This document shows positions 3,651 to 48,485 of a stretch of DNA of 64,000 nucleotides, one piece after another. This stretch comes from Zanthoxylum bungeanum (taxonomy: Eukaryota; Streptophyta; Magnoliopsida; Sapindales; Rutaceae). The stretch lies in contig SKCR01010140.1 of assembly GCA_019454045.1 (NCBI GenBank), positions 124,001 to 188,000 on the forward strand, read 5' to 3'. The position numbers were made by a program, and so were the translations under genes. Numbering within the stretch: the stretch's first letter is position 1; each line of letters begins with the position of its first letter. The notes beneath the pieces were generated by a model. The model worked only from the letters and a program-made list of their open reading frames with translations. It made no database searches and was not told the origin of the DNA.

Positions 3651-4404
3651 TCACACAATATCAAGACCGAGATATTTACTTGTATTACTGTAGAACACAG
3701 AAACTGGGCGACGCATGCTGTTCCAGGCTCGCGGCCCGGTTGGGAGTACGGAGTAGCCCACGGGGGACTAAACCGGAGAATAATGGAGTCGCCACCCAGT
3801 GTGAACCGGGAAAATGATTTAAGGCCGCACTCACCCCTCACAAGGGAAGACCTCAAACCGTTGGGTTCGGAATGGTCCCTTACTTATGTCATTTGTAATG
3901 AATGAATTTGTGCAATTTTAACCAAGTCTACTCGACATACATATTGGTCAAAGTAGTCTAAATTCTTATAAAGCCTAAATCTAGGTTTGCATGCTTCAAA
4001 AGTAAACTTTCATAATGGCAAACACATGATATCACACAATAAGCATGTTGAATAAATACGACTTAAACATAAGGTAAATTAAGCTCCTATTGCGAAAGAA
4101 AATAACTAAGTCATGCTAAAAATAAAATAACCTTCTAACGGTCTAATCATGCTCGAATACAAGTTTGGATGAAATGAAATATGTGAATCTCTCAAGTGGT
4201 ACGGGGCATTGTATCCCGAGTGTAAACCATAATACCGTCCATTCGGATTCGGCTACAGAATTTATGTCCGGGTTTCCATCCAATATACCACAAAAGGAAA
4301 ACATATTCCATTCACCCGAAATCACATCATATACTGATTCATAATTCTCATGCGACGAAAAGTAAGTTACATGCTTTTCTAAGGTACTAATTTACATAAC
4401 ATAA

Positions 4405-4735
4405 ATTAAATAACATGTTAAACTAATTATTCATGCTAAGCACATAAAATACATTTCCTAAGCTATTATTTCATGTGAACTAATTCAAACAACATGCTAA
4501 TCTAATTATTCATACTAAACACATAAAATACATTTCCTAAGCTATTATTTCATGTGAATAAATTCCATACAACATACCAAACTAATTATTCATGCTAAAC
4601 ACATAAAATACATTTCCTAAGCTATTATTTCATGTGAATAAATTCCATACAACATACCAAACTAATTATTCATGCTAAACACATGAAATAAATTTCCTAA
4701 GCTATTATTTCATGTGAGTAAATTTCCATAATATA
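4405..4735. repeat. About four 80-bp tandem repeats in LTR
   Basis: The phrase 'catttcctaagctattattt' recurs near 4452, 4531, 4610 and 4690, giving a period of 79-80 bp. The same array sits in the other LTR at about 10975-11305. The repeat predates the insertion because both LTRs carry it. Confidence 0.8.
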
Positions 4736-5203
4736 AACCCTCAGGTCTAACCTTTTGTGTCGTTCTTTGGAGATGCGTTATACGGCCGTCGGAGAGGCTA
4801 AGACACCGTGATCCCACCGGTCTGCTGTTTTGACATTTTTGCTTGTTGTTTCGCTGTTTCGTCCGCCATTTCCACTTCGTTTCGCTGCGATTCAGGTCAC
4901 CACACTTTGCTCACTGGTTTGCAGTGAATTATGGGCTGCTTTGGTGATGGTTTGGGTGCAAGTTGAGAGGCTAAAACTGGGCAGAATGTGCGCTGTTTCC
5001 AGGGGCCGAATAAGGTCAATTTGTGCACTGTTTTGAAGGCTAAATGAGGGGTGATTTGGGCGCAGGTTGAGAGGCAGTGAGGGGGATGATCCAGAGGCAA
5101 TTAAGGGCGTGACTTGAAGAGACAGCAATGGGTTGTTTTGGATCTTCAAATGCTTAAGTATTTGATTAATGTATGCTCGGTGTTTCAAGGCAGAAAATGA
5201 GAG

Positions 5204-5211
5204 TTTATATA
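5204..5211 (-). promoter_or_regulatory. TATA box in Tat-like LTR
   Basis: Minus-strand TATATAAA in 'cctatataaactc'. The identical site in the 5' LTR is at 11779-11786. It would start the element transcript toward lower coordinates. Confidence 0.5.
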
Positions 5212-5821
5212 GGCAAATAAAGTGAGTATTAATTAGGTAGGCCAAGGGTAATTAATTTGATACACTAGCTTTGTTGACAAAGGAAGGGAAAGTTGATGAT
5301 AATTGTGATCTTTGTTGAATATACAAGAAAGGTGATGGAAAATAAAGAAAAGGAAGATTAAATGGTGATGGGCGTGGGGTTGATGGCTTAAATGGTGTGG
5401 GGTTGATCAATTAATGGCTTGGAAAATTGATATCAAGGTAAAAGTTTGGTCAAAGGTGTAAAGTAAGTTGGTAGAAAGGTAAATCATGTTTGAATAGTGG
5501 ATGAAGGGGTGAATATGATGTCATGGGCGTGAGCTTCTTGGATGGTGGGCTTGGTGTTTGATTTGTTTTGATTTCATGGGCTTTGGTTGTGGGTTTAGGT
5601 GGGCTTAGAGTGGTTTGCGGTGATTTCAGGCCAAAGACATGCCTCGAAACGAAGATTCAACAAGCGAACTCCGAGCGAACTCAACGAAATAAAACCAATG
5701 ATATGTCAACTCTTGACTTCTCATTTCCGACGACCGTTTTCCGCTACTTCCACAAATTAAAGGTAGTGCCTCCTTACGAGACTCCTCATCGGGTTTGGTA
5801 TGCAAAAATGCAATGCCTACA

Positions 5822-5836
5822 GTCACCCCCACTTTG
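5822..5836 (-). other. Polypurine tract of Tat-like element
   Basis: On the minus strand AAAGTGGGGGTGAC directly abuts the 3' LTR start TGTAGGC. This is the expected site for plus-strand DNA priming. Confidence 0.75.
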
Positions 5837-5984
5837 ATGGGATTCATTGAGTGTGTGCCAATGACAATCCTATCAAAGTATGTGCAATGCATTTTTACTT
5901 ACCTGGCTCGCCAGCTGCCGTTTGACTTACCTGTTGCGCTGAGTTGATACTGCTAAGCCCCGTACCTATGGCGTCGCAGTAGTC

Positions 5985-6370
5985 CACAATTCTTCACGAT
6001 AGTCCATTATAGTCCACGATAATCCATAATACTTCTCAGTAGTCCACGGTAGTCCACATAATCCATGGTAGTCCACACAATCCTCATAATCTCTATAGTC
6101 CACATAATCCACGGTAGTCCACATAATCCACATAATCCTCATAATCTTCATAGTCCACGGTAGTCCACAGTAGTCCACGGTAGTCTGCGATAGTCCACAT
6201 AGTCCACGATAGTCCATAATACTCCACAATAATCCACAATACTTCCACAATAGTCCACATAGTCCACGATAATCCACGGTAGTCCACGACAGTCCACAAT
6301 ACTCATCGATAGTCCACGGTAGTCCACATAATCCACGATAATCCACGGTAGTCCACATAGTCCACGTGCC
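5985..6370. repeat. About 9-bp minisatellite (TAGTCCACN)n
   Basis: Roughly 380 bp consist of degenerate 9-bp units such as tagtccacg, tagtccaca and aatccacgg. On the minus strand they read as VDY/RGL-rich peptides in all three frames, which is the trivial effect of a period divisible by three. It lies in the 3' part of the Tat-like element, where pol is missing. Confidence 0.85.
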
Positions 6371-10261: not shown

Positions 10262-10264
10262 GAC

Positions 10265-12404
10265 TATAAGACACAGAAACTGGGCGACGCATGCTGTTCC
10301 GGGTTCGCGGCCCGGTTGGGAGTACGGAGTAGCCCACGGGGGACTAAACCGGAGAATAATTGAGTCGCCACCGGGTGTGAACCGGGAAAATGATTTAAGG
10401 TCGCACTCACCCCTCGCAATGGAAGACCTCAAACCGTTGGGTTCGGAATGGTCCCTTACTTATGTCATTTGTAATGAATGAATTTGTGCAATTTTAACCA
10501 AGTCTACTCGACATACATATTGGTCAAAGTAGTATAAATTCTTATAAAGCCTAAATCTAGGTTTGCATGCTTCAAAAGTAAACTTTCATAATGGCAAACA
10601 CATGATATCACACAATAAGCATGTTGAATAAATACGACTTAAACATAATGTAAATTAAGCTCATATTGCGAAAGAAAATAACTAAGTCATGCTAAAAATA
10701 AAATAACCTTCTAACGGTCAAATCATGCTCGAATACAAGTTTGGATGAAATGAAATATGTGAATCTCTCAAGTGGTACGGGGCATTATATCCCGAGTGCA
10801 AACCATAATACCGTCCATTCGAATTCGGCTACGGAATTTATGTCTGGGTTTCCATCCAATATACCACAAAAGGAACACATATTCCATTCACCCGAAATCA
10901 CATCATATACTGATTCATAATTCTCATGCGACGAAAAGTAAGTTACATGCTTTTCTAAGGTACTAATTTACATAAAATAAATTAAATAACATGCTAAACT
11001 AATTATTCATGCTAAGCACATAAAATACATTTCCTAAGCTATTATTTCATGTGAACTAATTCAAACAACATGCTAATCTAATTATTCATACTAAACACAT
11101 AAAATACATTTCCTAAGCTATTATTTCATGTGAATAAATTCCATACAACATACCAAACTAATTATTCATGCTAAATACATAAAATACATTTCCTAAGCTA
11201 TTATTTCATGTGAATAAATTCCATACAACATACCAAACTAATTATTCATGCTAAACACATGAAATACATTTCCTAAGCTATTATTTCATGTGAGTAAATT
11301 CCATAATATAAACCCTCAGGTCTAACCTTTTGTGTCGTTCTTTGGAGATGCGTTATACGGCCGTCGGAGAGGCTAAGACACTGTGATCCCACCGGTCCGC
11401 TGCTTTGATGTTTTTGCTTGTTGTTTCGCTGTTTCGTCCGCCGTTTCCACTTCGTTTCACTGCGATTCAGGTCACCACACTTTGCTCACTGGTTTGCAGT
11501 GAATTAGGGGCTGTTTTGGTGATGGTTTGGGTGCAAGTTGAGAGGCTAAAACTGGGCAGAATGTGCGCTGTTTCCAAGGGCCGAATAGGGTCAATTTGTG
11601 CACTATTTTGAAGGCTAAATGAGGGGTGATTTGGGCGCAGGTTGAGAGGCAGTGAGGGGGCTGATCCAGAGGCAATTAAGGGCGTGACTTGAAGAGAGAG
11701 CAAAAGGCTGTTTTGGATCTTCAAATGCTTAAGTATTTGGTTAATGTATGCTCGGTGTTTCAAGGCAGAAAATGAGAGTTTATATAGGCAAATAAAGTGA
11801 GTATTAATTAGGTAGGCCAAGGGTAATTAATTTGATACACTAGCTTTGTTGACAGAGGAAGGGAAAGTTGATGATAATTGTGATCTTTGTTGAATATACA
11901 AGAAATGTGATGGAAAATAAAGAAAAGGAAAATTAAATGGTGATGGTTGTGGGGTTGATGGCTTAAATGGTGTGGGGTTGATCAATTAATGGCTTGGAAA
12001 ATTGATATCAAGGTAAAAGTTTGGTCAAAGGTGTAAAGTAAGTTGGTAGAAAGGTAAATCATGTTTGAATAGTGGATGGAGGGGTGAATATGATGTCATG
12101 GGCATGGGCTTCTTGGATGGTGGGCTTGGTGTTTGATTTGTTTTGATTTCATGGGCTTTGGATGTGGGTTTAGGTGTTTAGGTGGGCTTAGAGTGGTTTG
12201 CGGTGATTTCGGGCCAAAGACATGCCTCAAAATGAAGATTTAACAAGCGAACTCCGAGCGAACTCAACGAAATAAAACCAATGATATGTCAACTCTTGAC
12301 TTCTCCTTTCCGACGACCGTTTTCCGCTACTTCCACGACTTAAAGGTAGTGCCTCCTTACGAGACTCCTCATCGGGTTTGGTATGCAAAAATGCAATGCC
12401 TACA
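10265..12404 (-). repeat. 5' LTR of Tat-like element
   Basis: Matches 3689-5821 over its length with scattered substitutions and a short insertion near 12170. The outer end TACA is intact. The inner end reads TATAAG where the other copy has TGTAGA, so the terminal dinucleotide has mutated. TATATAAA on the minus strand lies at 11779-11786. Confidence 0.9.
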
Positions 12405-12409
12405 ATTAC

Positions 12410-12907
12410 CCCTATTAATCAAGATTGTACACATGATACGAAAATATATGTTACGGTATTCTCTCATTTTCCATGGAGCGTATGTCTCAAAACAATATTA
12501 TACATATGATAGTTCAGATAATCACAATATTCAACTTACATTTGACATTAAGTGAAATAAACTTATTCACCTTAGGTCATATCATAAAGAAAGTGACCCT
12601 ATAACGACATTACATAATTTTCAAGCTTGAGCTCTTTTAAATTATCACTCAGACAATAAGCTTAAAAATTTGTCTCATCTTCTCTTATCACAAAGTAATA
12701 AAGGCGATTGTCCATGTGAAAGGACCAATCATTCACTTGTCCGAAATATTTCTCATACTAACTAATATTATATTTGTTTAAATATGTTTTCACATAGTAA
12801 AATCTAAGCATTAAGCACAAATATCAATGAGTATTAACATCAGTAAATATTCTTGGGAAAAAATCATCATGAAATGAAATCATATTAACATTCATGATAT
12901 AATATCA
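12410..12907. other. AT-rich stretch without gene
   Basis: It lies between the Tat-like element and the copia pol fragment. No domain, tandem repeat or LTR partner was recognised in the window. It may be the remaining leader or LTR of the copia into which the Tat-like element inserted. Confidence 0.4.
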
Positions 12908-16190: not shown

Positions 16191-18061
16191 TATAGTTAAT
16201 CACTTAAGTATCTAACACCTGAACTATGTAGATGTCGCTCAAACTTTTGCTGAGATATAAATTTCGTCAGCGGATCTGTAATGTTATCATCTGATGCGAT
16301 CTTCTCGATCTTCACATCGCCACGATGTATGATCTCACGAATCAGATGAAATCGTCGAAGTACATGCTTGGATCATTGATGAGACTGTGGTTCCTTAGCC
16401 TGTGCGATAGCCCCATTATTGTCATAATACAAAGGTACGAGCTCAGCTGCTAACTGAACTACTCCTAATCCAATTAGGAATTTACGGATCCAAACTACTT
16501 CTTTTGCTGCCTCAGCTGCAGCAATATATTCCACTTCTGTTGTTGAATCAGCAACAGTCTCTTACTTGGAAGATTTCCAGCTCACTGCTCCATTGTTCAA
16601 ACAAAATATGTACCCTGATTGTGACTTACAATCGTCTTTGTCGGTTTGGAAACTTGCATCGGCGAATCCAGTCACCTCAAGTTCTCATTCCCCATAGACT
16701 AAGAAAGCATCTTTAGTTCATCTAAGATACTTAAGGATGTTCTTTACAACAATCCAGTGACCATCACCTGGATCGGCCTGATAGCGACTGCACATGCTCA
16801 AAGCATATGAGACATCAGGTCGCGTACATATCATGGTGTACATGATCGATCCGACTACTGAAGCATACGGGATCTGAATCATTGCATCTCTCTTATCTTG
16901 AGTTTTAGGACACATATCTTTCGATAGAGAGACGCCAAGTGACACCGAAAGCAGCCCCCTCTTGGACTGATCCATGTTGAATCTTTTCAACACTTTGTCA
17001 ATGTACGAGCTCTGGGAGAGTGCCAGCAGCTTTCTAGATCTATTCCGGTAGATACTTATTCATAGAATAGAGGCTGTCTCTCCCAGGTCTTTCATGGAGA
17101 ATTTTAATGAAAGCCAAGCTTTCACCAATTGTAGCATGGGAATGTCATTGCCAAGAAGCAATACATCATCAACGTATAGGACAATGAATGTCAGTGCACT
17201 CCCACTAACCTTCTTATATACACAAGAATCATCTTAATTTTGAATGAAACCATATTTTTTATGATCTCATCAAAACGTTGGTTCCTAGAACGCGATGCTT
17301 GCTTTAATCCATAAATGGATCGGTTTAACTTGAAAACCTTGTTTGCATGTCTTGGTATGACAAAACTATCAGGTTGTTGCATATAAACATCCTCCAAAAG
17401 GTTTCCATTAAGGAAAACGATTTTGAAATCCATATGCCATATTTCATAATCGAAATATGCAGCAATAGCAAGCATTATCCGATTGGATTTAATCATGGCA
17501 ATGGGTGAAGAAGTCTCGTCATAATCGAAACCATGTCGTTGATGATAACCTTTAGCTACAAGCCTAGCTTTGTACGTTTGTATGTTGCCTTCCATGTCTG
17601 TCTTCTTCTTGAAGACTCATTTACAACCAATAGGCTTAATGCCTTCTGGTACATCAACCAGTGTCCAAACTTAGTTGGTATACATGGAAGCCTTTAGGAC
17701 TTCATGGCTTCTTGCCATAAAGCGGAGTCGATACCTTGTATCGCTTCCTCATACGTAGCCGGTTCATTTTCCTCAATAAGATTAATGTCTACATGAGGTG
17801 AGATCAGAAACCCATACCTCTCAGGTTATTTTCTGACTCTCTTTGACTTACACGGTTCTTGTGTATTAGAAGATTGTGGAACAGTCTCATCCCTGATGGA
17901 TCATGTTCCGTGAGGGGGTCGGTGCTAGAAACAGTATCACTCCGATTTTCATCGAGTTCTACTTTCCTCCCACTTATCACTACATTCATGAATTCCTTTT
18001 CTAGGAAAACCGCATGAAGAGCAACAAATATTTTGTTCTCTTGTGGGTTGTAGAAATAATA
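16191..18061 (-). pseudogene. Copia reverse transcriptase and RNase H, with stops and a frameshift
   Basis: After an acidic linker (about 18060-17640), RT begins near 17595 with YKARLVAKGYHQ, then MDFKIVFLNGNL, SIYGLKQAS and, after a frame change near 17250, YVDDVLL at about 17170. The RPDVSYAL block is at about 16815. RNase H follows with GFADASF (about 16655) and the STTEVEYIA block (about 16530). Internal stops include one after KYLR (about 16717) and one before ETVADS (about 16565). RT and RNase H copy the genomic RNA into DNA. The domain order integrase before RT is diagnostic of Ty1/copia. Confidence 0.85.
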
Positions 18062-19246
18062 TCATTTCGTTTCCTTAGGGTAATCTACAAATAAGAACTT
18101 ATCCGATTTGGGTTCTAGTTTGGTACTATCCAAACGTTTAACATATGCCCAGCATCCATAAATCTTCAGGAATAAGAAACCCGGTTTATTTCCTATCCAT
18201 ATTTCATATGGAGTCTGTTCAACAGACTTTGATGGAACCTTATTCAAAATAAATATTGCATTGTTTAATGCGTATCCCCAGAAGGAAATCAGTAGCTCTG
18301 TGCGACTCATCATTGACCTTACCATGTCCAACAAAGTTCGGTTTCTCTGTTCGGACACACCGTTCAATTGAGGTGTTCCTGGAGGAGTCCACTGTGAAAG
18401 AATACCATATTCTTTCAAGTAATCTTGAAACTCATTGCTTAAGTATTCTCCACCATGGTCCGACCGTAATGTTTTAATACTTTTGCCAGTCTGTTTTTCT
18501 ACTTCGTGTCGAAACTCTTTGAATTTCTCAAAAGTTTCCGACTTGTGTTTCATAAGATACACATAACCATAACGCGATGCATCATCCGTAAAGGTTATGA
18601 AATATTCATATCCACCTCTAGCCTGGCTAGACATGGGCCCATATACGTCACTATGAACGAGGGCTAACAACTCGGTGGCACGTACACATTTACCACTAAA
18701 AGGTGTTTTAGGCATTTTACCTAACAAACAAGATTCACAGACATCATATGAATTAGGATCATATCCGTCCAAGTATCCATTCTTCGAAAGTGTGGATATA
18801 CGAGTTTTGTTTATGTGTCCCAGACGACAATGCCACAAATAAGTCTCATCTATTTTACTCAATTTGAGCTTTTTGTTTGTCATGTTATATGTTTGAGATT
18901 CGTTCATATTCAAAGTATAAAGACCATTATTCACATCTACTGTACATATCTCAATATCATATTTATAAACAAAACACCCAGTGTTCCCGAATACAAAGGT
19001 ATACCCGCATTGGGTTAAACTAGATACAGAGATGATATTCATAGTCAAACTAGGTACAAAATAACAGTCACCTAATGTAAGTACATGCCCTGAGGGCATA
19101 TTCAAAACATATGTGACAACGGCCAAAACAACGACTCTTGTCTCATTTCTGACTCGCATGCCGATGTCTCCTGAAGCTAGTCTCCTGCTAATCTGCAGAT
19201 CATACACATCAGTAAATATGTGAGTACCACATCCAGTATCAAAAAT
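18062..19246 (-). pseudogene. Copia protease end, GAG-pre-integrase and integrase core
   Basis: Just after the stop at 19247-19249 the frame reads IFDTGCGTHI, the aspartic-protease active site (D-T-G). An open frame from 19207 covers 381 codons. It has a zinc-binding GAG-pre-integrase domain (WHCRLGHI ... CESCLLGK) and then the integrase core: HSDVYGP, RSDHGGEY and the glutamate in NGVSEQRNRT supply the D,D35E triad. The C-terminal YVKRLDSTKLEPKS block is also present. This is the best preserved coding stretch in the window, with all catalytic residues visible, but it cannot be expressed normally because gag upstream is interrupted. Confidence 0.88.
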
Positions 19247-30984: not shown

Positions 30985-32340
30985 GTCAATGGAGTTCATC
31001 CTGAACCTTCATCTAGGTCAGTCGATGGGAATATTCCCCATGACTCACGTCAAGTCAAGATCAAGACATAGACCTTAATCTGGTTCAGACGACATTGAAG
31101 ACTCCCCTCGGACCCTCAGCAGGTCTAGTCAACTGGAGATGATCATGGTCCTTCATTTGGTCCAGTCGACGAGAACATTCCCCATAGCTCACGTCGAGTC
31201 AAGATCAAGACCCGGACCTTCATCTGGTCCAGACGACATATAAGACTCCATCAGACCCTCAGCAGGGTTGGTCGACTGTAGATGATCTTGGTCATTTATC
31301 TGGTCCAATCGACAAGAACATTCCCAATGGCTCACGTCTAGTCAAGATCAAGACCTGGACCTTCATCTGGTCCAGACAATATAGAAGACTCCTCCGGACC
31401 CTCAGTAGTTCTGGTCGACTAGAGATGATCCTGGTCATTCATCTTGTCCAGTCGACGGGAATATTCCCCATGGCTCATGTCGAGGCAAGATCAAGACCTG
31501 GACCTTCATCTGGTCCAGACGACATAGAAGACTCATCCGGACCCTCAGTAGGTCTGGTCGACTGGAGATGATCTCTGTCATTCATATGATCCAGTTGACG
31601 GGAACATTCCCCATAGCTCATGTCGAGGCAAAATCAATACGTGGACCTTCATGTCAAGACGACATGGAAGACTCCTCCGGACCCTCAGCAAGTCTGGTCG
31701 ACTGGAGATTATCATGGTCCTTCATCTGGTCCAGTCGACGGGAATATTCCCCATGGCTAATGTCGAGGCCAAATCAATATCTTGACCTTCATCTGGTCCA
31801 GACGACATAGAAGACTCCTCCGGACCCTCAGCAGGTCTGGTCGACTAGAGATGATCCTGGTCCTTCATCTGGTCCAGTCGAAGGGAACATTCCCCATGGC
31901 TCATATCGAGGCAAGATCAAGACCTAGACCTTCATCTGGTCCAGATGATATAGAAGACTCCTCCGGACCTACAGTAGGTCTGGTCGACTAGAGATGATCT
32001 CGGTTCTTCATCTGGTCCAGTCGATGGGAACATTCCCATGGCTCATGTCGAGGCAAGATCAAGACATGGACCTTCATCTGGTCTAGACGATATAGAAGAC
32101 TCCTCCGGACCCTCAGCAGATTTGGTCGACTAGAGATGATCCTGGTCCTTTATCTAGTCTAGTAGACGGGAACGTTAGCCATGGCTCATGTCGAGTAAAG
32201 ATCAAGACCTAGACCTTCATCTGGTCCAGACGACATTAAAGACTCCTCTGGTCCTTCTCAGGACCAGTCGGCTGGAGAACACCCTAGACCTTCATCTGGT
32301 CCAGTCGACGGAAACATTCATCAAGGCTCATTTCGAGTCA
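30985..32340 (+). repeat. Tandem array of about nine 143-bp units
   Basis: The phrase 'agactcctccggaccctcag' (with variants) occurs near 31098, 31242, 31385, 31529, 31669, 31811, 31953, 32096 and 32239, giving spacings of 140-144 bp. Each unit includes 'ctggtccagtcgacgggaac' and 'gcaagatcaagacctggacc'. About one and a half related units also lie at 29450-29655. The period is similar to plant satellite monomers. Confidence 0.9.
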
Positions 32341-32584
32341 CTATCAAGATAAGGCATTCATCTGTTCCATTCGACGAGATTACTCTCTGTAGCTCATGAC
32401 TATCTCTCAGATCATCATCAAACTTGGTCCACTGAGGATCGTCCCAAATAACCATTCGTTCTTATGACATATGGCAGGTTCTAGCGACAATAGCATCCGG
32501 GTATGCTCATCAAACCCCAGACGACATACTCATCAAGTACTCTCCAAGTCAGAGACTCATTGTTTTATAGAGTATAGGATAAAC

Positions 32585-36746: not shown

Positions 36747-38360
36747 TGACCGGCACGTAATCACACGCGTATAACGCAAGCGCATGTATCTTTCAAGTAG
36801 TATAAAAAGTATCGATCCCACGAAGACTTAAAACCTGTTGTTATCAATCTATGAAGTTAAATGTTTACAAGTATCTAATAGATTGATTGTTTGATTGGGT
36901 GGGTGGGTGGTGACTTTAAAATTAAAACACGTAACTAAATTGCTTGAAAGTAGATTGAAGAAAATTCAAATTTATAAAATTATCCAGGGTTGTGAATCCT
37001 TCCAACATCTTTTTTAAAAAATGAAGTGGTTATTTTACGTTTTTGTAATATATTGGTTTATTAACTTGGAACACGAAATTATGTAAAAGCCTCTTCCGAT
37101 GGTCAAATACAAATACCCAGTATAACCCAATTAATTATATTCCTATGTTAACCAAGTTATCTGAATTCATTAAGATTAAGTTCCAATTATGGTTACCTCC
37201 GCCCGACAGGTATATTCATATCCTGTAAGGAAATCTATTAAAGGTTATCTATCCTCAAGGAAGATCGTGGGCTATTGAGTCTAAGGTCTTTAACCTAAAA
37301 TCTTTTTTCCAAGTTCATTTTAAGTTTACGAGTTCAATTTTATTAATGGCCAGTTAATAAAAAGCATTAGGATTAAGGCTCAATAAATAAACATTTATAT
37401 TACCCAAACTGTAATTTAACGCCTTATAAACCAGTGATATTGGATTTCATCACAACCCCAGATAACTGGCTTAGTTACGACACATATTTACGGGTAGTAG
37501 AAACTTAAATAAAAGAAAAGACATAAAGTAAATGCTGGAAATTAAATTACTGGAAAGTAAATTGCTGAAAAGTAAATTGCTGAAAAGTAAATTTTTGAAA
37601 AGTAAATTGTCGAAAGTAAATAAAGTAAAAGTAAATTGCTAAAAAGTAAATTCCTGAAAAGTAAATTGCTGAAAGTAAATAAAGTAAAAGTACAATAAAG
37701 AAAATGCTGAGGTAAAATGATTCACTTTTATTACTACTATTTTAGATATCTCCCTTAATATAATATATTAACTTTGCGTGATAATTACCAACCAACCATA
37801 AAGGCGGTATCCTGATTAAGTCAAATTAATAATTAATTACCAACCGACCAACCAGGCGGTATCCATGATTAGTCAGGTTAAAACCAATTTATAATTAATT
37901 ACCAACCGACCAATATGGCGGTATCCTCGTTAAGTCAAGTTTTAACTAGTTTATATATTAAAATTAAGGGAGATAAATCTAAATATTAGTAATAAAATTT
38001 TACATTTTACCCCAGCAAAGGGGAGTTACCTCCTCATTACTGAAAAGTAAAAACTGAAAATTAAAGAAAGAAAAGTATTGTGCGTAAAAGTAAATTGCGC
38101 GGAAAGTAAAAACTGAAAAGTAAAGAAAAGAAAGTGTGAAAGCGGAAATAATTACTGAAAGCTGTAAATAAACAAATAAGATACAATCCTCTTAGTTATT
38201 CTTAAGGAATTTCAAAGAAGAAAGTATGAATTTACAAATGAAATGGCTTGGTATTTATAGGCAAAATTTTGCCTCCATCAAATCATCCACCAAATCCATT
38301 ATTAATTGCTCCACTAATTGCTCCACCAAATCCATTATTAATAGCTCCACTAATTGCTCC
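36747..38360 (-). repeat. Partial Athila-type LTR, diverged relative of 38457-40570
   Basis: Starts TGACCGGCAC on the plus strand and follows the neighbouring LTR for 1.6 kb, including the GAAAAGTAAATT repeats (about 37535-37690) and three GGCGGTATCC blocks (37785-37930). It stops about 450 bp short of the end. It is more diverged than the two LTRs of the adjoining element are from each other, so it is an older insertion. Confidence 0.75.
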
Positions 38361-38456: not shown

Positions 38457-40570
38457 TGACCGGCGTAAACACACACGTATAACGCAAGCGCACGTATCGT
38501 TCAAGTAGTATAAAAATATCGATCCCACGAGGACTAAATATCTAATCTATTAATTTTTATGAGTCAAATGATTACTAGTATCTAACAGGTTGTTTGATTG
38601 ATTTGAAATGGTGACGATTCTAAATTTAAAAACAAGTAAATAAATTGTTCGAAAGTAGTTTTAAGAAAATTCAATATTAAAAACTATTTAGGGTTGTGAT
38701 TTCTTCCAATATCATTTTAAAGATGAAGTGGTTATTTTATGTTTGTGTAATAAATCGGTTTACTAACCTGGAACACTAAATTATGCAAAAGCCTCTGTCG
38801 ATGGTCAGACGCAAATACCCAGTTTAACCCAATTGAACCATATGTCTATGTCAACCAAATTATCTGGATTCATTAAGTTTAAGTTCCAATTATGGCTACC
38901 CCCGCCCGACATGTATATGTCTATCCTGTAAGGAAATCTATTAAAGGGTTATAATCCCTCAAGGAAGATCGTGGGCTATTAAGTCTAAGGCTGAAACCTA
39001 AAATCCCTATGTCTAGTTCATTTTAGATTTACCACATCAATCTTATTGGTGATTAGACAACAAGAAGCATTAAGCTTAAGACTTAATAAGTAAACCTTTA
39101 AATTACCCAAACTATAATTTAACCCTTTATAAACCAGTGTTATTGGATTTCATCACAACCCCAGATAATTGGCTTAGTTACGACACAATTACGGGTAGTA
39201 AAAAAAACTTAAATAAAATAAAAGACATAAAGTAAAATACTGAAAATTAAATGCTGAAAAGTAAAAGCTGAAAGTAAATGCTGAAGTTAAATTTAAACTG
39301 AAAATTATATGCTGAAAAGTAAATGCTGAAAGTAAATTGCTAAAAAGTAAATTGCTGAAAAGTAAATTGCTGAAAAGTAAATAAAGTAAAATTACAATAA
39401 AGAAAATGCTGAGGTAAAAAGATCCACTTTTATTACTTCTATTTTAGATATCTCCCTTAATATAATATATTAACTTTGCATGATAATTACCAACCAGCCA
39501 TATAGGCGGTATCCAGATTAAGTCAAATTAATAATTAATTACCAACCGACCAATCAGGCGGTATCCAGTTTAGTCAGGTTAAAACCAATTTAAATAATTA
39601 CCAACCGACCAATATGGCGGTATCCTCGTTAAGTCATGTTTTAACTAGTTTATATATTATAATTAAGGGAGATTAATCTAAATATTAGTAATAAAAGTTT
39701 TACCTTTTACCCCAACAAAGGGGAGTTACCTCCTCATTACTGAAAAGTAAAACTGAAAATTAAATAAAGAAAAGTATTGTGCGTAAAAGTAAATTGCGGA
39801 AAGTAAAAACTGAAAAGTAAAGAAAAGAAAGTGCGAAAATGAAAATTAATTACTGAAAGCTGTAAATAAACAAACAAGATACAATCTTCTTAGTATTCTT
39901 AAGGAATTCCTTAGAAGAAAGTATGAATTTACAAATGAAATGGCTTGGTATTTATAGGCAAAATTTTGCCTCCATCAAATCATCCACCAAATCAATTATT
40001 AATTGCTCCACTATTGCTCCACTATTGCTCCACAAATCCATTATTAATTGCTCCACTAATCTCTTATCATGTTTGGTGATGATTTGATAATTTTTTTATT
40101 TAATTTATTTTTTGCTTTGAAAATGATTGAAAGTGACTTTAATAATTACACACTACACACTTCTGGATGGTTCATCAATTTCGGGCATGAAATCTTCAGA
40201 ATTCAAAATTATTTTGTCTTTCAAAGTTGTAGATCTTTGAGTCTTCTTTAATCTGGAACTTGAATCAGCTCAATCTGATAGCTGAGTAAAACGTTATGCC
40301 CAAAATACGAAAGATGCGCAAAATTGGAATTTCCAAAACTGCACTTCGTCAAAACGCCCTTTCAAGTTTCCAATCTCCAAAATTAAAATATCAAGTCCAA
40401 TAATTGCCCTTATTTGACCCATATTTCATCCTAAATGATTTCATTGAGACCCAATATTATTTTATCTGTAAAATAAACTAAAACACATCAAAACGTTCAT
40501 CAAACCCGAGAAACTAAACAAAATATTAAGTTAAAGGGGCGGTAAATATTGATATATTTTCCGCTCATCA
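38457..40570 (-). repeat. 3' LTR of Athila-like element
   Basis: Near-identical to 46374-48485. Contains degenerate 13-15-bp GAAAAGTAAATTGCT repeats (about 39235-39400) and three 53-59-bp units with GACCAAT and GGCGGTATCC (starts near 39488, 39541 and 39600). A minus-strand TATAAATA (about 39950, in 'gcctataaataccaag') is followed by a leader. Confidence 0.92.
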
Positions 40571-41887: not shown

Positions 41888-42535
41888 TTAAAGGTTAAGA
41901 TCCAGATTAACACGACGCCTCTTACCACGATCATCCTCGGACCAATTTATCTTTGAAAGGACAGGGTCAATTTGTGGTTCATAGGCTAAGATTTGGTCTA
42001 TTAGATCCGGAGTAGTTCTGGCAGTAAAGAGGAGTTCTTTTAAAGGTTTTGATATGAACCCATTTCTCCGGGCATCATCAAGAAACACACAAAGAAAATC
42101 ATAAAATCCATCAAGTTAAACAGCCCAATTGGTTTCTGGTGTATGTCAGGTTCGCCCAAGATAGTATAAAAAATTTCCTCCAATGTGCCCAAGCCACCTG
42201 GCAAAGCAAAAAAACATTAGTACGGTTAATCATTTCTACCAGTCGTTCAGACATACCTGGCACCATCAGTTCCTCTCCGTTTGATGATCCAATAAGATTT
42301 GCCTCTGCCAAGGGTTTTGGGATGATTCCTAAAACGTTACTACCTCCTTCTGTACGGCTTTTGAAACGATCCCCATAAGTCCAAGATTGCCTCCGCCATA
42401 TATTAAGTGCATATTCCTTGCAGCTAAGACTCGACCCAATTCATGTGCTGCTTCTATGTATTGTGGTTTAGTACCAACACTACTACCGCAAAACACACAA
42501 ATATTTTCAACTCGTCTTCTTGAAGTGGCTTCCAT
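41888..42535 (-). pseudogene. LOG-family (cytokinin-activating phosphoribohydrolase-like) gene carried by retrotransposon
   Basis: LOG enzymes release active cytokinin bases from riboside 5'-monophosphates. From an ATG at 42535 the frame gives [20 protein letters not shown] and [11 protein letters not shown], both LOG signatures. After a shift near 42342 it reads [17 protein letters not shown], then MVPGMSERLVEM, where R fits the conserved arginine of the M-x2-R motif. After a second shift near 42205 comes the hallmark PGGxGTxxE (42175-42201). A third shift near 42120 leads to [10 protein letters not shown] and a basic tail ending NLDLNL at 41888. Total length, about 215 codons, is normal for LOG proteins. 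No introns are present, unlike typical plant LOG genes, which suggests capture through RNA. At least three single-base frameshifts make this copy non-functional, though other genomic copies may be intact. Confidence 0.85.
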
Positions 42536-42603
42536 GTTTTTATGTATTTCTTTCTCAATCAGGATGCCTTCAAAAGTGCATTGACGAGCTGAATTTATAG
42601 TAC

Positions 42604-42626
42604 CTGAAAAAGGTGAGTAAAAATAG
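42604..42626 (-). promoter_or_regulatory. 3' splice-acceptor-like site before LOG ORF
   Basis: Minus strand TATTTTTACTCACCTTTTTCAG then GT, about 70 bases before the LOG start codon. A pyrimidine tract followed by CAG is a good plant acceptor. Confidence 0.4.
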
Positions 42627-42798
42627 CACAAGTATCTTCCAAAGGACGATTAGTAACAAAATAGTAAAATAGATCGTGATATGGTCAAAAAGGTCTGGAT
42701 CCTGTCGGAGAAAATAAAAGAAAACAACAAAACAAATCAAATTATTAGGAAAAGACAAAGAGATATAATATGTACAAGAATTAGAGCTTGATTAACGT

Positions 42799-43346
42799 CT
42801 ATGCGTCAAGGACAAGTTTCCCATCCAATTTTCTTATAAATTGGCAAACAGGGTCTTTTTGAGTCAGATTCCCAAGACTTAACTGTTGTCTTTCTTTTTG
42901 AAATTGTGTATGTAATCTGCGAAAGGCTATGTGAACATATCCACTGGGATGCGTCTCAAGAGTCGAAGATATATCATCTAAAGACTCCTTACTCAAGCCA
43001 TCCCTAATGAATTTAATTTTGTCTTCGCGATTATTAGACACCATTCCAAAGAATGACAACGAGTATTGCAATTCCAACGTGCACATTTGTAACAAACACC
43101 CATTTGCTTAGCTCTTCGTTTCTTTGCATAAGTGCTTCTTCCAAAACCAGGCAGATGTGAAATAAAATAGTCTGAAGACTCACCTGCCAATCGGACTCGT
43201 GCTTCAATTACCCAATGAATGTCATTGGGAACACCATGGATCATCAGTAACCTCATCCGTTCCAAGCAAGCTTTGTAAACTTTCATTAGAGATTTTTTAG
43301 GGAGAGAAGGAAATTGCTTGTGAAGATTTGCGAGAGCTTCTTCCAT
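42799..43346 (-). pseudogene. Unrecognised ORF with C-x2-C-x4-C-x3-C motif
   Basis: From ATG 43346 the frame reads MEEALANLHKQFPSLPKK, then KACLERMRLLMIHGVPND and a basic AKKRRAKQMG stretch followed by CYKCARWNCNTRC, a possible four-cysteine zinc site. A frame change near 43040 is needed to continue into KFIRDGLSKESLDD, YVHIAFRRLHTQFQKERQ and FIRKLDGKL, ending at 42799. About 180 codons. I do not recognise the family. It is not gag, pol or an obvious membrane protein: no long hydrophobic segment is seen. Its place between integrase tail and LOG ORF suggests cargo or a derived accessory ORF. Confidence 0.6.
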
Positions 43347-43361
43347 CTTGAAATGTCTTAA

Positions 43362-43385
43362 CCTGCAAAAAACTAAACACACAAA
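43362..43385 (-). promoter_or_regulatory. 3' splice-acceptor-like site before the cysteine-motif ORF
   Basis: Minus strand GTGTTTAGTTTTTTGCAG then GT, 17 bases before the ATG at 43346. Together with the site before the LOG ORF it suggests spliced subgenomic messages. Confidence 0.45.
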
Positions 43386-43485: not shown

Positions 43486-43877
43486 TTAAGCTGGATCTGA
43501 AAGTGTAACACTTTCTTTTTGTCGCTCAAATGATTCTCCCCAGTAGTGCTTGACACGCTTGTTTTTAACCTTGAAAGTTTTGTTAGCGTCAGGATCATGT
43601 ATCTCAATGGCTCTATTTGGTAAAACTTTAGTGATCACAAATGGACCTAACCACCGTGATTTTGGCTTCCATGGGAAGAATTTCACCCCTGATTTGTTTA
43701 ACAGTACCTTCTGCCCTGGTTCCAGTTGTATGCGTACTAACTTCTCATCATGTCTTTTCTTGCCCTTTTCTTTGTACAATTTGGCATCTTCAAAAGGCTG
43801 ATTGTGAAATTCCTCCAATTCGTTGAGCTGGTGGAACTTTTTCTCTTCTATTGCTTGTAGAGCAAGAATTGGCTCTT
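43486..43877 (-). pseudogene. Integrase C-terminal tail of Athila-like element
   Basis: The frame reads KEKGKKRHDEKLVR, then LEPGQKVLLNKSGVKFFPWK and SRWLGPFVI, the GPF/Y-type module of gypsy integrases, then VKHYWGESF and a stop. Upstream residues QLNELEEF continue in the same frame to about 43873. There the protease frame ends, without RT, RNase H or the D,D,E core. So an internal deletion joins the protease tail to the integrase tail. After the stop the phrase GGGAGGCAACCCATG, usual downstream of Athila integrase, is present. Confidence 0.85.
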
Positions 43878-44640
43878 TCAGTGCAAAAGATGATAATCTT
43901 TAGGCTCCACAGGTAATTGACATGTTTTAAGTTTGTCAGTAGAACTTTGTCTTTCATCAGAGTTCTGAATGGTACTGTGTATCACATCGAGTTTGAAACA
44001 TTCCTCATTCTTTTCATCATCTGGGAAATTCATGGCCTTGAAAACATTGAATGTTACTTCTTGGTCATGTACCCTCATGGTTAGTTCTCCTTTTTGTACA
44101 TCAATAATGGTTCGACCTGTAGCCAAGAACGGTCTCCCAAGGATGATTGGCACGTCTGCGTCTTCCTTCATATCAAGGACAATAAAATCTGCTGGGAAAA
44201 TGAATTTGTCAACCTTGACCAGCACATCCTCAACTACGCCTCTTGGAAATACGAGCGTTCTATCAGCAAGTTGCAGTGAGACTGAAGTTGGCATTGTTTC
44301 TCCAATCTGTAATTTCCTGAAAATAGAAAAAGGCATCAAGTTAACACTAGCACCTAAATCACATAAAGCCTTACCAAAGTTATGTTCTCCTATGATGCAA
44401 GGAACAGTGAAACTGCCAGGATCTTTCAACTTCGGGGGAAGTTTCCTCTGAATGATAGCACTGCATTCTTCTGATAATGCTACTGTCTCGTAATCTCCCA
44501 ATCTCTGCTTTCGTGAAAGAATATCTTTCATGAATTTGGCATAGGTGGGCATTTGTTCCAACGCTTCTGCAAATGGAATGTTGATATGCAGCTTTTTGAA
44601 GATTTCCAGGAACCGAGAAAACTGCTTGTCCAATTTGTTC
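43878..44640 (-). pseudogene. Athila-like protease region
   Basis: An open frame of 251 codons. FLEIFKKLHINIPFAEALEQ and YAKFMKDILSRK are the gag-protease linker typical of Athila. LCDLGASVNLMP (about 44370-44335) is the aspartic-protease site in the Athila form, with D-L-G instead of D-T/S-G. IILGRPFLATGRTIID follows, containing the hydrophobic-hydrophobic-G block. Retroviral-type proteases process the Gag-Pol polyprotein. The reading frame upstream is shifted near 44640. Confidence 0.85.
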
Positions 44641-46135
44641 TTCTGAAGACGTTGAGGAAAAGGTGGAGGTGGAGTGATCTGTTCTTTTTCCTTGCTTCTT
44701 TTTCCTCCATCCGTTGCTTTGTTTCTTTTGGAACTTCCTCAGTAGTTTTTTGGCTCCAACATCTTTGTTGATTTCAGTACCGCTTTTTAACATAACATGA
44801 TGGCATGACATTGTTCCTTCCCCATGTTTCTTGGATTTGGCTCAGTGTTGCTAGGAAGGGTACCTGGCGGTCTGTAACTCTGAGCATTTGCCAGTTGTCC
44901 CATTTGATTCTCCAGTGCTTTAATAGAAGCAGATTGACTTTGAATTAATGCTGATTGGGATTGAAACATAGCATCATATCTTGCTGCTTGAGAGTCGTGT
45001 TTTGCTTCTAACTTTATCAAGTGGGTCAACACTTCTGTTATTCCTGGTTCATTTGCATGCTCCTGGCTTTTGTTCTGTTGTTGGAATTCAGGTGGTGGAT
45101 AGTTTTGCTGTTCTTCGGTTATTCCTGGTCATTGCCTCCCTGGCTTTTGTTCTGTTGTTGGAATTCAGGTGGTGGATAGTTTTGCGTTGGCCTGAATTGT
45201 TGCTCCATGGAAAATTGGGATGATTCCTCCACCATGGGTTGTAGGTGTTGGAATATGGATTATTCCCCTGTCTGTTGAAATTTTTGACAAAATTCACTGT
45301 CTCTTCCTGCTGAACTGGTTCTGGTGCTCCTTTATATGATGAACTTGGTGATCCACCATTAACCTTCATGTTAAGAGTTTCCAGATTTTTGTAAATCATA
45401 TCCAGCTTGACATTCAGTGCTGTGTTGGCTCCAACTTCATAAATTCCTGCGATTCTTTGGATCATGCTCCTTTCTGTTGGCCACAAAGAATTATTGTTGG
45501 CCATTTCTTCAATTAAATCCCAAGCCTGATCTCCTCCTTTTGCCATTAGTGCTCCTCCAGCAGCAGCATCAATTGTGGTTCTCATTATTCCAGAAAGTCT
45601 ATAGAATGTTTGGACTTGAAGCCATTTTGGAATCTCATGGTGAGGACATTTCCGGAGCAAATCTTTGTACATTTCCCAAGCTTCGCAGAGGGATTCTGAA
45701 TCTTGTTGTACAAAGGATGTGATGTCATTCCTCAACTTTGCAGTTCTGGCTGGTGGAAAGTATTTTGCAAGGAATTTGGTGGCTAGAGTGTTCCAAGTTG
45801 TGATGGAACCTGCTGGTAGTGAATGTAGCCAAGCTTTAGCTCTGTCCTTCAAGGAGTATGGGAAAACTCGCAGTTTCATTGCTTCTTCTGATGCTCTGTT
45901 GTAGTTGAAAGTACCACAAACTTCCAGGAAGTTACTGATGTGGGCATTAGGATCTTCAGTTGCATTCCCCCCGAACTGAACTGACTGCTGAATCATCTGA
46001 ATGCATGTTTTGATGTCACACGTATTTGCTGGTAATGGAGGAAGTACAATACAGGAAATGAGTCTGTCAACCACCGAATGGTTCTGTCTCGAATGGGAAT
46101 TGGTGGTGCAACCTCCAACGGTTCAGGTTCCATGT
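44640..46135 (-). pseudogene. Athila-like gag
   Basis: An ATG at about 46133 starts MEPEPLEVAPPIPIRDRTIR. After a shift near 46075 a 328-codon frame (46074-45088) shows the Athila capsid signature: QSVQFGGNATEDPNAHISNF, LRVFPYSLKDRAKAWL, FLAKYFPPARTAKLR and the asparagine-rich block near GIYEVG. A second shift near 45090 leads to a coiled-coil segment (SALIQSQSASIKALENQMGQ) and TLPSNTEPNPR. There is a duplicated stretch of about 70 bp around 45070-45180 ('ttttgttctgttgttggaat'). At least two frameshifts disable it. Confidence 0.85.
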
Positions 46136-46349: not shown

Positions 46350-46367
46350 TCCCCGGCAACGGCGCCA
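46350..46367 (-). other. Primer-binding site of Athila-like element
   Basis: Minus strand TGGCGCCGTTGCCGGGGA, the tRNA-Asp-type PBS of Athila elements, six bases from the 5' LTR. Confidence 0.92.
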
Positions 46368-46373
46368 AAAACT

Positions 46374-48485
46374 TGACCGGCGTAAACACACACGTATAAC
46401 GCAAGCGCACGTATCGTTCAAGTAGTATAAAAATATCGATCCCACGAGGACTTAATATCTAATCTATTAATTTTATGAAGTCAAATGATTACTAGTATCT
46501 AACAGGTTGTTTGATTGATTTGAAATGGTGACGATTCTAAATTTAAAAACAAGTAAATAAAATTGTTCGAAGTAGGTTTTAAGAAAATTCAATATTAAAA
46601 ACTATCTAGGGTTGTGATTTCTTCCAATATCATTTTAAAGATGAAGTGGTTATTTTATGTTTATGTAATAAATCGGTTTACTAACCTGGAACACTAAATT
46701 ATGCAAAAGCCTATGTCGATGGTCAGACGAAAATACCCAGTTTAACCCATTGAACCATATGTCTATGTCAACCAAATTATCTGGATTCATTAAGTTTAAG
46801 TTCCAATTATGGCTACCCCCCCCGACAGGTATATGTCTATCCTGTAAGGAAATCTATTAAAGGTTATATATCCTCAAGGAAGATCGTGGGCTATTAAGTC
46901 TAAGGCTGAAACCTAAAATCCCTATTGTCTAGTTCATTTTAGATTTACCACATCAATCTTATTGGTGATTAGACAACAAGAAGCATTAAGCTTAAGACTT
47001 AATAAGTAAACCTTTAAATTACCCAAACTATAATTTAACCCTTTATAAACCGGTGATATTGGATTTCATCACAACCCCAGATAATTGGCTTAGTTACGAC
47101 ACATATTTACGGGTAGTAAAAAAAACTTAAATAATAAAAGACATAAAGTAAAATACTGAAAATTAAATGCTGAAAAGTAAATGCTGAAAAGTAAATGCTG
47201 AGATTAAATACTGAAAATTAAATGCTGAAAAGTAAATGCTGAAAAGTAAATTGCTAAAAAGTAAATTGCTGAAAAGTAAATTACTGAAAAGTAAATAAAG
47301 TAAAATTACAATAAAAGAAAATTCTGAGGTAAAATGATCCACTTTTATTACTTCTATTTTAGATATCTCCCTTAATATAATATATTTACTTTGCGTGATA
47401 ATTACCAACCAGCCATATAGGCGGTATCCAGATTAAGTCAAATTAATAACTCATTACCAACCGACCAATCAGGCGGTATCCAGTTTAGTCAGGTTAAAAC
47501 AATTTAAATAATTACCAACCGACCAATATGGCGGTATCCTCGCTAAGTCAGGTTTTAACTAGTTTATATATTATAATTAAGGGAGATTAATCTAAATATT
47601 AGTAATAAAAGTTTTACCGTTTACCCCAGCAAATGGGAGTTACCTCCTCATTACTGAAAAGTAAAAACTGAAAATTAAATAAAGAAAAGTATTGTGCGTA
47701 AAAGTAATTTGCGGAAAGTAAAAACTGAAAAGTAAAGAAAAGAAAGTGCGAAAACGAAAATTAATTACTGAAAGCTGTAAATAAACAAACAAGATACAAT
47801 CTTCTTAGTATTCTTAAGGAATTCCTTAGAAGAAAGTATGAATTTTACAAATGAAATGGCTTGGTATTTATAGGCAAAATTTTACCTCCATCAAATCATC
47901 CACCAAATCAATTATTAATTGCTCCACTAATTGCTCCACCAAATCCATTATTAATTGCTCCACTAATCTCTTATCATGTTTGGTGATGATTTGATAATTT
48001 TTATTATTTTTTTATTAATTTATTTTTTTGCTTTGAAAATGATTGAAAGTGACTTTAATAATTACACACTACACACTTCTGGATGGTTCATCAATTTCGG
48101 GCATGAAATCTTCAGAATTCGAAATTATTTTGTCTTTCAAAGTTGTAGATCTTTGAGTCTTCTTTAATCTGGAACTTGAATCAGCTCAATCCAATATCTG
48201 AGTAAAAAGTTATGCCCAAAATACGACAGATACGCAAAACTGGAATTTCCAAAACTGCACTTCGTCGAAACGCCCTTTCAAGTTTCCAATCTCCAAAATT
48301 AAAATATCAAGTCCAATAATTGCCCTTATTTGTCCAATATTTCATCCTAAATGATTTCATTGAGACCCGATATTATTTTATCTGCAAAATAAACTAAAAC
48401 ACATCAAAATGTTCATCAACCCGAGAAACTGAACAAAATATTAAGTTAAAGGGGCGGTAAATATTGATATATTTTCCGCTCATCA
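46374..48485 (-). repeat. 5' LTR of Athila-like element
   Basis: 2,112 bp, closely matching 38457-40570 with small indels, for example in the GAAAAGTAAATT array (about 47150-47310). The three GGCGGTATCC units are at about 47401-47535. The high similarity suggests a fairly recent insertion relative to the partial LTR at 36747-38360. Confidence 0.92.

Follow-up and report, generated by a model that had tools for sequence, protein, structure and literature searches.

LOG enzymes convert cytokinin nucleotides to active cytokinin, and plant genomes contain several LOG genes. In Ty3/Gypsy retrotransposons, a LOG-family domain (YgdH) has been reported for Citrus sinensis and C. clementina and, with a looser filter, for Populus trichocarpa, in passages of PMC9289625 that cite Steinbauerova et al. 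2011 as an earlier report. The window analyzed here (the whole stretch of 64,000 nucleotides of Zanthoxylum bungeanum DNA) carries a LOG-family gene within an LTR element. The account that we favor, and regard as reasonably probable, is that of an Athila-like family with two accessory genes, in which LOG was kept by selection and is predicted to activate cytokinin; the window element would be a non-autonomous member of this Ty3/Gypsy family, with both accessory genes lying after the integrase.

Structure of the window element

A minus-strand LTR element occupies positions 48485 to 38457 of the window (Table 1). Its two LTRs are 97.2% identical across 2093 aligned columns (K2P 0.028); assuming 1.3e-8 and 7e-9 substitutions per site per year, this divergence would correspond to approximately 1 to 2 million years. 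The primer binding site is presumably of the tRNA-Asp type. Compared to the relative L025, in which RVT_1, RNase H and rve stand in Gypsy order, the window element has no RT, RNase H or integrase core between the protease and the integrase tail. The assignment to Athila is ours by resemblance to a lineage with gag, protease, RT, RNase H and integrase in Gypsy order, long LTRs and a tRNA-Asp-type primer binding site, and is hence putative; the window element itself has gag and the primer binding site, with most of pol missing. The Athila ORF-1 domain PF03078 is absent from the Pfam matches of the six scanned window ORFs; according to the consulted part of PMC6317226, this domain is found in 16% of Athila elements; it is no requirement. 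No perfect 5-bp target-site duplication is present in the flanks of the element.

Table 1. Features of the minus-strand LTR element in the window
Feature	Position	Strand	Remarks
5' LTR	46374..48485	-	2112 bp, TG...CA
Primer binding site	46350..46367	-	18 nt, just past the 5' LTR
gag ORF	45088..46074	-	PF03732, E 5e-21
Protease region	43878..44633	-	weak matches to aspartyl protease profiles PF13650 (E 0.004) and PF08284 (E 0.005), both under cut-off
Integrase C-terminal tail	43486..43818	-	no Pfam match alone; homologous to the end of the L025 integrase ORF
Carlavirus-type nucleic-acid-binding (NABP-like) ORF	42993..43382	-	PF01623 over cut-off, PF05515 just under
LOG leader with pyrimidine-rich stretch	42536..42760	-	CAG-terminated in 17 of 18 aligned copies; possible 3' splice site
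LOG-family gene	41888..42535	-	ATG to TAA; intron-free, frame-shifting indels
3' LTR	38457..40570	-	2114 bp, TG...CA

Several other repeats are located in the window. A further LTR-like stretch at 36805-38354, matching at approximately 62-98% by block, directly adjoins the 3' LTR. The direct repeats at 3687-5829 and 10263-12412, approximately 6575 bp apart, at 96% and each with an 80-bp tandem array, look like a second LTR element. In addition, Copia-type pol pieces (RVT_2, rve and gag_pre-integrase) are found at 17191-19207, a 143-bp unit in 9.5 tandem copies at 30998-32349, and a minisatellite of a TAGTCCACGA-like 10-mer at 5980-6366.

The LOG gene and its virus-type neighbor

An earlier note on this DNA had described a full-length, intron-free LOG gene with its own start codon and at least three frameshifts, lying on the minus strand inside one LTR pair after the integrase tail. 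The present analysis bears out most of this description. The LOG motifs stand in the right order, distributed over three frames of the minus strand; no intron is present in the gene, which runs from ATG to TAA between the two LTRs; and alignment to an open relative reveals five frame-shifting indels. When read through, the gene matches PF03641 with 82 bits against a cut-off of 27. Searched alone, the first of its pieces matches PF18306 (E 9e-8) and not PF03641, the second matches PF03641 under the gathering score (E 0.003), the third matches PF03641 over the cut-off of 27 (36 bits, E 9e-9), and the fourth gives no Pfam match; the profile check of the frames proposed in the earlier note was thus answered by the third piece. 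The position after the integrase tail is also correct, except that a second accessory ORF, the unremarked NABP-like ORF, intervenes.

Both the PGGxGTxxE motif and the upstream arginine, which we take to be important for LOG enzymes, are found in the window pieces. Among solved chains, the best match of the window LOG is Arabidopsis At2g37210 (E 5e-47). In a large protein collection, 1292 proteins among 1600 candidates match it at E 0.001, and the two best relatives, each of 217 residues, show 80-81% identity. Measured over its readable codons against 11 open relatives, the window LOG has a median dN/dS of 0.36. In 17 of the 18 aligned copies, a pyrimidine-rich tract with a terminal CAG lies ahead of LOG. 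By eye, the N-terminal extensions of the relatives P0008 and P0009 resemble the translated leader upstream of the window LOG, and a leader-LOG context like that of the window therefore seems, from these sequences, to exist in other sequenced material.

The neighboring NABP-like ORF of the window scores 28.5 bits with PF01623 (cut-off 20.9, E 1.5e-6) and 22.9 bits with PF05515 (cut-off 23). Its frame is broken in the window copy and encodes 182 aa in most full-length relatives. In alignment A1, 16/16 relatives match PF01623 and 15/16 match PF05515 at E 0.01 or better. Among the 120 matches listed of 925, the proteins with a named source come from Xanthoceras, Populus, Acer and Rhamnella; no virus is named among these 120, few of which are named at all, and one of them has "Viral nucleic acid binding" as its product name. 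IMG/VR scans with the NABP-like alignment and with P0001 gave no relatives at the sensitivity used, and the AlphaFold model of the protein (mean pLDDT 50.7) was too poor for use. The LOG protein P0112 and the NABP-like protein P0139 each lie on a single 4511-base contig from the same source, which suggests that they are neighbors.

On contig C23952 of the host genome, seven same-strand NABP-like matches occur between 418412 and 429796 at a spacing of approximately 1.8-1.9 kb. This series looks like a tandem array of the NABP-LOG unit, because L033, a stretch taken from it, contains LOG as well and, past it, the same part of the element again.

The element family in the host genome

A PF03641 profile search of the 3.96-Gb host assembly gave 47,331 loose candidates, 150 of which were scored. 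All 150 lie over the cut-off, 147 of them without a stop inside the match, and the host genome contains at least 150 LOG copies. Domain positions 1 to 131 are spanned without introns by 149 of the matches, and positions 1 to 130 by the other one. Twenty loci (the LOG-chosen sample) were hand-picked among ranks 1 to 51, on contigs with enough surrounding sequence. Element-internal sequence adjoins LOG in all 20, and a matching LTR was also found in 19, with none in the L021 stretch. Three further short loci (L003, L005 and L007) are element sequence reaching an LTR; in total, all 23 loci examined lie in the element family of the window. Plants have several LOG genes of their own, and the matches might be read as host genes or processed host pseudogenes; the location of all 23 loci within element sequence, together with the intron-free span of the domain in 149/150 matches, makes such a reading very improbable.

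The 20 LOG-chosen loci fall into different structural types. Seven of them (L011, L012, L013, L015, L018, L019 and L024) align gap-free through the pol deletion of the window, and the window element therefore belongs to an amplified non-autonomous group. Three others (L017, L025 and L026) hold approximately 2.7 kb more between the protease and the integrase tail; of these, L025 combines RVT_1, RNase H and rve with a 182-aa NABP-like ORF and a 217-aa LOG ORF. The search for relatives with an uninterrupted LOG ORF, as suggested previously, was accordingly successful within the host genome. Five loci contain LOG alone (see below), and five are rearranged or unclear (L014, L016, L021, L023 and L027). 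L016 contains two tandem LOG units with LTR pieces, 3.5 kb apart and 98.8% identical over 4.5 kb.

A second sample was chosen without regard to LOG. A PF05515 profile search of the host genome gave 19,137 loose candidates, 150 of which were scored, all over the cut-off; the same search of 14 control genomes gave no match. From the 150 loci, 20 were hand-picked across approximately the top 90 and taken together with 1.7 kb of downstream sequence (the LOG-blind sample). LOG lies downstream of the NABP-like gene in 19 of the 20 and is missing from L039; it is partial in L034 and L038, and in L036 it follows extra sequence and runs off the stretch. Since LOG follows the NABP-like gene in 19/20 loci chosen by the latter, it is a lasting part of the element family and no private capture by one element. 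The same count rules out a separate, late insertion of LOG into the window element alone, the outcome set beforehand as refuting. Given also that both flanks of LOG are homologous among the copies examined, the probability of such an insertion is close to nil.

Selection on LOG and neighboring genes

In 16 LOG-blind copies, the dN/dS of LOG is 0.33, with a 95% codon bootstrap interval of 0.26-0.42 that is too narrow owing to the non-independence of the pairs, as are the other intervals given here; 0/2000 replicates reach 1. The four remaining loci of this sample were left out, as LOG is partial or running off in L034, L036 and L038 and absent from L039. For the NABP-like gene, which had served to choose these 16 loci, the value is 0.40 (0.30-0.53); this gene is open in nine of them, one without ATG, and LOG in two. 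In the LOG-chosen 20 loci plus the window, with the second unit of L016 (L016b) dropped, the dN/dS of LOG is 0.25 (0.19-0.31) for the whole gene, and codons beyond the scored domain give 0.37 (0.25-0.56). The scored domain itself gives 0.18, against 0.35 and 0.42 outside it, a contrast inflated by the choice of loci via LOG. Similar values were obtained for gag (0.32, 9 copies) and for the NABP-like gene in 12 copies chosen by LOG and not by the gene itself (0.37).

Two further estimates were set aside: a dN/dS of 0.64 for the NABP-like gene in 16 copies, since L014, L016, L026 and L027 keep only part of it, and a median of 0.21 for LOG in 11 open frames of the first 20 loci, since these loci are the top LOG-domain scorers.

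Wrong-frame controls gave 0.69 and 1.30, and since one of them is itself 0.69, base composition may account for part of any dN/dS below 1. Over the 400 bases past LOG, copies differ by 0.13 on average, which is above the 0.05 of LOG at nonsynonymous sites and under its 0.18 at synonymous sites. Synonymous LOG differences between copies, at 0.18 and 0.22, are far above the 0.028 by which the LTRs of the window element diverge, which implies that most of the divergence predates insertion and arose in transposing lineages. Judging from these rates, and from the LOG-blind value in particular, LOG was retained by selection while the elements were active, although just 2/16 of the copies are open. 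The comparison of dN/dS between copies had been proposed as a check in the earlier note; its outcome lends support to the suggestion that LOG may have been functional in the parent element. Pairwise dN/dS cannot separate an advantage to the element from an advantage to the host.

LOG-only elements

Another group of loci consists of elements in which LOG is the sole recognized protein. These are five of the 20 LOG-chosen loci (L009, L010, L020, L022 and L028), and the same pattern is seen in L003 and L007 within their 3.4 kb. Compared to L020, the other four are 78-87% identical over 1935 bp between the LTR and LOG. A tblastn search of the five loci for gag, protease, integrase tail and the NABP-like protein gave no match, and three small upstream ORFs of L020 gave no Pfam match over the cut-off. 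L020 and L028 keep an open LOG frame, and the frame is disrupted in L009, L010 and L022. At least L010 and L022 are real transposed units, because exact 5-bp target-site duplications are found at their TG...CA ends; their LTR identities are 95.1% and 96.6%, respectively. No target-site duplication was found in L028, which has a tandem arrangement, or at the edges tested for L009 and L020.

The LOG-only group bears on whether LOG could be a mere passenger, that is, a captured host cDNA without effect on the element. Captured genes have been reported in plant retrotransposons, at least in the consulted part of PMC7264820, and most LOG copies of the LOG-blind sample are broken. However, the interval of the LOG-blind dN/dS lies wholly under 0.5, and in the short LOG-only derivatives the dN/dS of LOG is 0.23 for the whole gene and 0.35 (0.22-0.57) for codons beyond the scored domain, these loci having themselves been found through their LOG score. 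On this evidence we consider a passenger role quite unlikely and favor retention of LOG by selection.

Relationships of the element LOG proteins

In a tree of 42 LOG proteins, 36 form a clade with support of 99/97; among its members are the window LOG, the six host-genome copies included in the tree, and sequences from Populus, Reevesia and Diplodiscus. Outside this clade are two Arabidopsis proteins, one bacterial protein, P0105 (Xanthoceras), P0036 and P0044. The Arabidopsis proteins At2g37210 and At5g11950 (solved as 2a33 and 1ydh), presumably LOG3 and LOG8, are the same as the element LOG in family, motifs and length; unlike them, the element proteins form a separate supported clade. The earlier note had proposed that a host LOG messenger was captured by the element. 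The missing introns fit this proposal; on the other hand, the 19/20 LOG-blind loci and a clade spanning several plants speak against its having happened recently and in a single element.

All 21 host-genome frames, a set selected through the PGGxGTxxE motif, keep the arginine ahead of it. Of 120 database LOG proteins checked, 15 have no readable motif; 96 of the other 105 keep the arginine, one has cysteine, and eight (P0008, P0009, P0011, P0016, P0017, P0029, P0030 and P0040) have glutamine. Given this replacement, enzyme activity may have been lost in some relatives. It is conceivable that the LOG protein is retained for a purpose other than cytokinin chemistry, such as binding nucleotides in support of element RNA or particles. 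The glutamine-bearing relatives, several of them full length, and the pairing with a protein of nucleic-acid-binding type would agree with such a role. Against it stand the arginine in 21/21 host-genome frames, a sample in which the motif itself is no test, and the strongest constraint being in the scored domain, a contrast inflated by the choice of loci. We regard this role as rather unlikely and retain the prediction of cytokinin activation.

Proposed function

According to the favored account, LOG would have joined the family in intron-free form, ahead of the divergence of the copies examined, and purifying selection would have kept it while the elements transposed, with decay in each copy after insertion. 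The data show the structure, the linkage, the multi-copy occurrence and the selection; for expression, splicing, enzyme activity and benefit, we infer the following course. The LTR promoter would give rise to a subgenomic, probably spliced RNA and hence to LOG protein, which may convert cytokinin nucleotides to the active hormone in those cells in which the element is active. With a larger number of dividing or meristem-like cells, new insertions could then have a better chance of reaching the germ line, although a cytokinin role in transposition is a guess. The NABP-like protein would bind RNA and may blunt silencing. The position after the integrase is that of the env-like ORFs in Athila, and together with the CAG-ending pyrimidine stretch it would suit expression from spliced RNA.

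A more far-reaching reading is put forward tentatively, as possible rather than likely: the two genes may be a selected cassette that manipulates the host, with a cytokinin-raising LOG and a virus-type protein countering silencing, and the LOG-only derivatives may be moved in trans, bringing hormone activation alone. If the enzyme is active, this would be a mobile element with many copies of a hormone-activating gene, acting on host development, a strategy known from plant-infecting bacteria. The family also provides a case in which selection on an accessory gene can be put to the test in non-autonomous elements.

Comparison with known systems

Among the papers listed for cytokinin, LONELY GUY and retrotransposons, none dealt with hormone action by an element, and no report of an NABP-like gene in retrotransposons was found among the matches listed, which is weak evidence of absence. 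Among the same matches, LOG in Gypsy elements is already known, and the NABP-like pairing, the LOG-only derivatives and the evidence of selection were not found.

The closest described systems are the YgdH Gypsy elements of Citrus and Populus (PMC9289625), which, as far as that source was consulted, carry a LOG-family non-canonical domain as the present family does. Section 12 of that paper names no lineage for these elements and contains no analysis of selection or function; the terms carlavirus, nucleic acid binding and NABP do not occur in its main text, and the LOG-only derivatives described here have no mention in the portions consulted. The same paper describes orchid Gypsy elements that encode an AlkB-type m6A demethylase and similarly represent a cellular-type enzyme kept as an extra ORF. 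According to those portions, the orchid enzyme has RNA as its substrate and was assayed in vitro, whereas the enzyme of the window family is predicted from sequence to be of a hormone-activating type. A virus-type gene is carried by insect retrotransposons with a viral SF1 helicase, proposed in the consulted part of PMC6338049 as a silencing suppressor; in contrast, the virus-type gene of the present family belongs to another protein family (Carla_C4/Viral_NABP) and stands beside LOG in a plant element.
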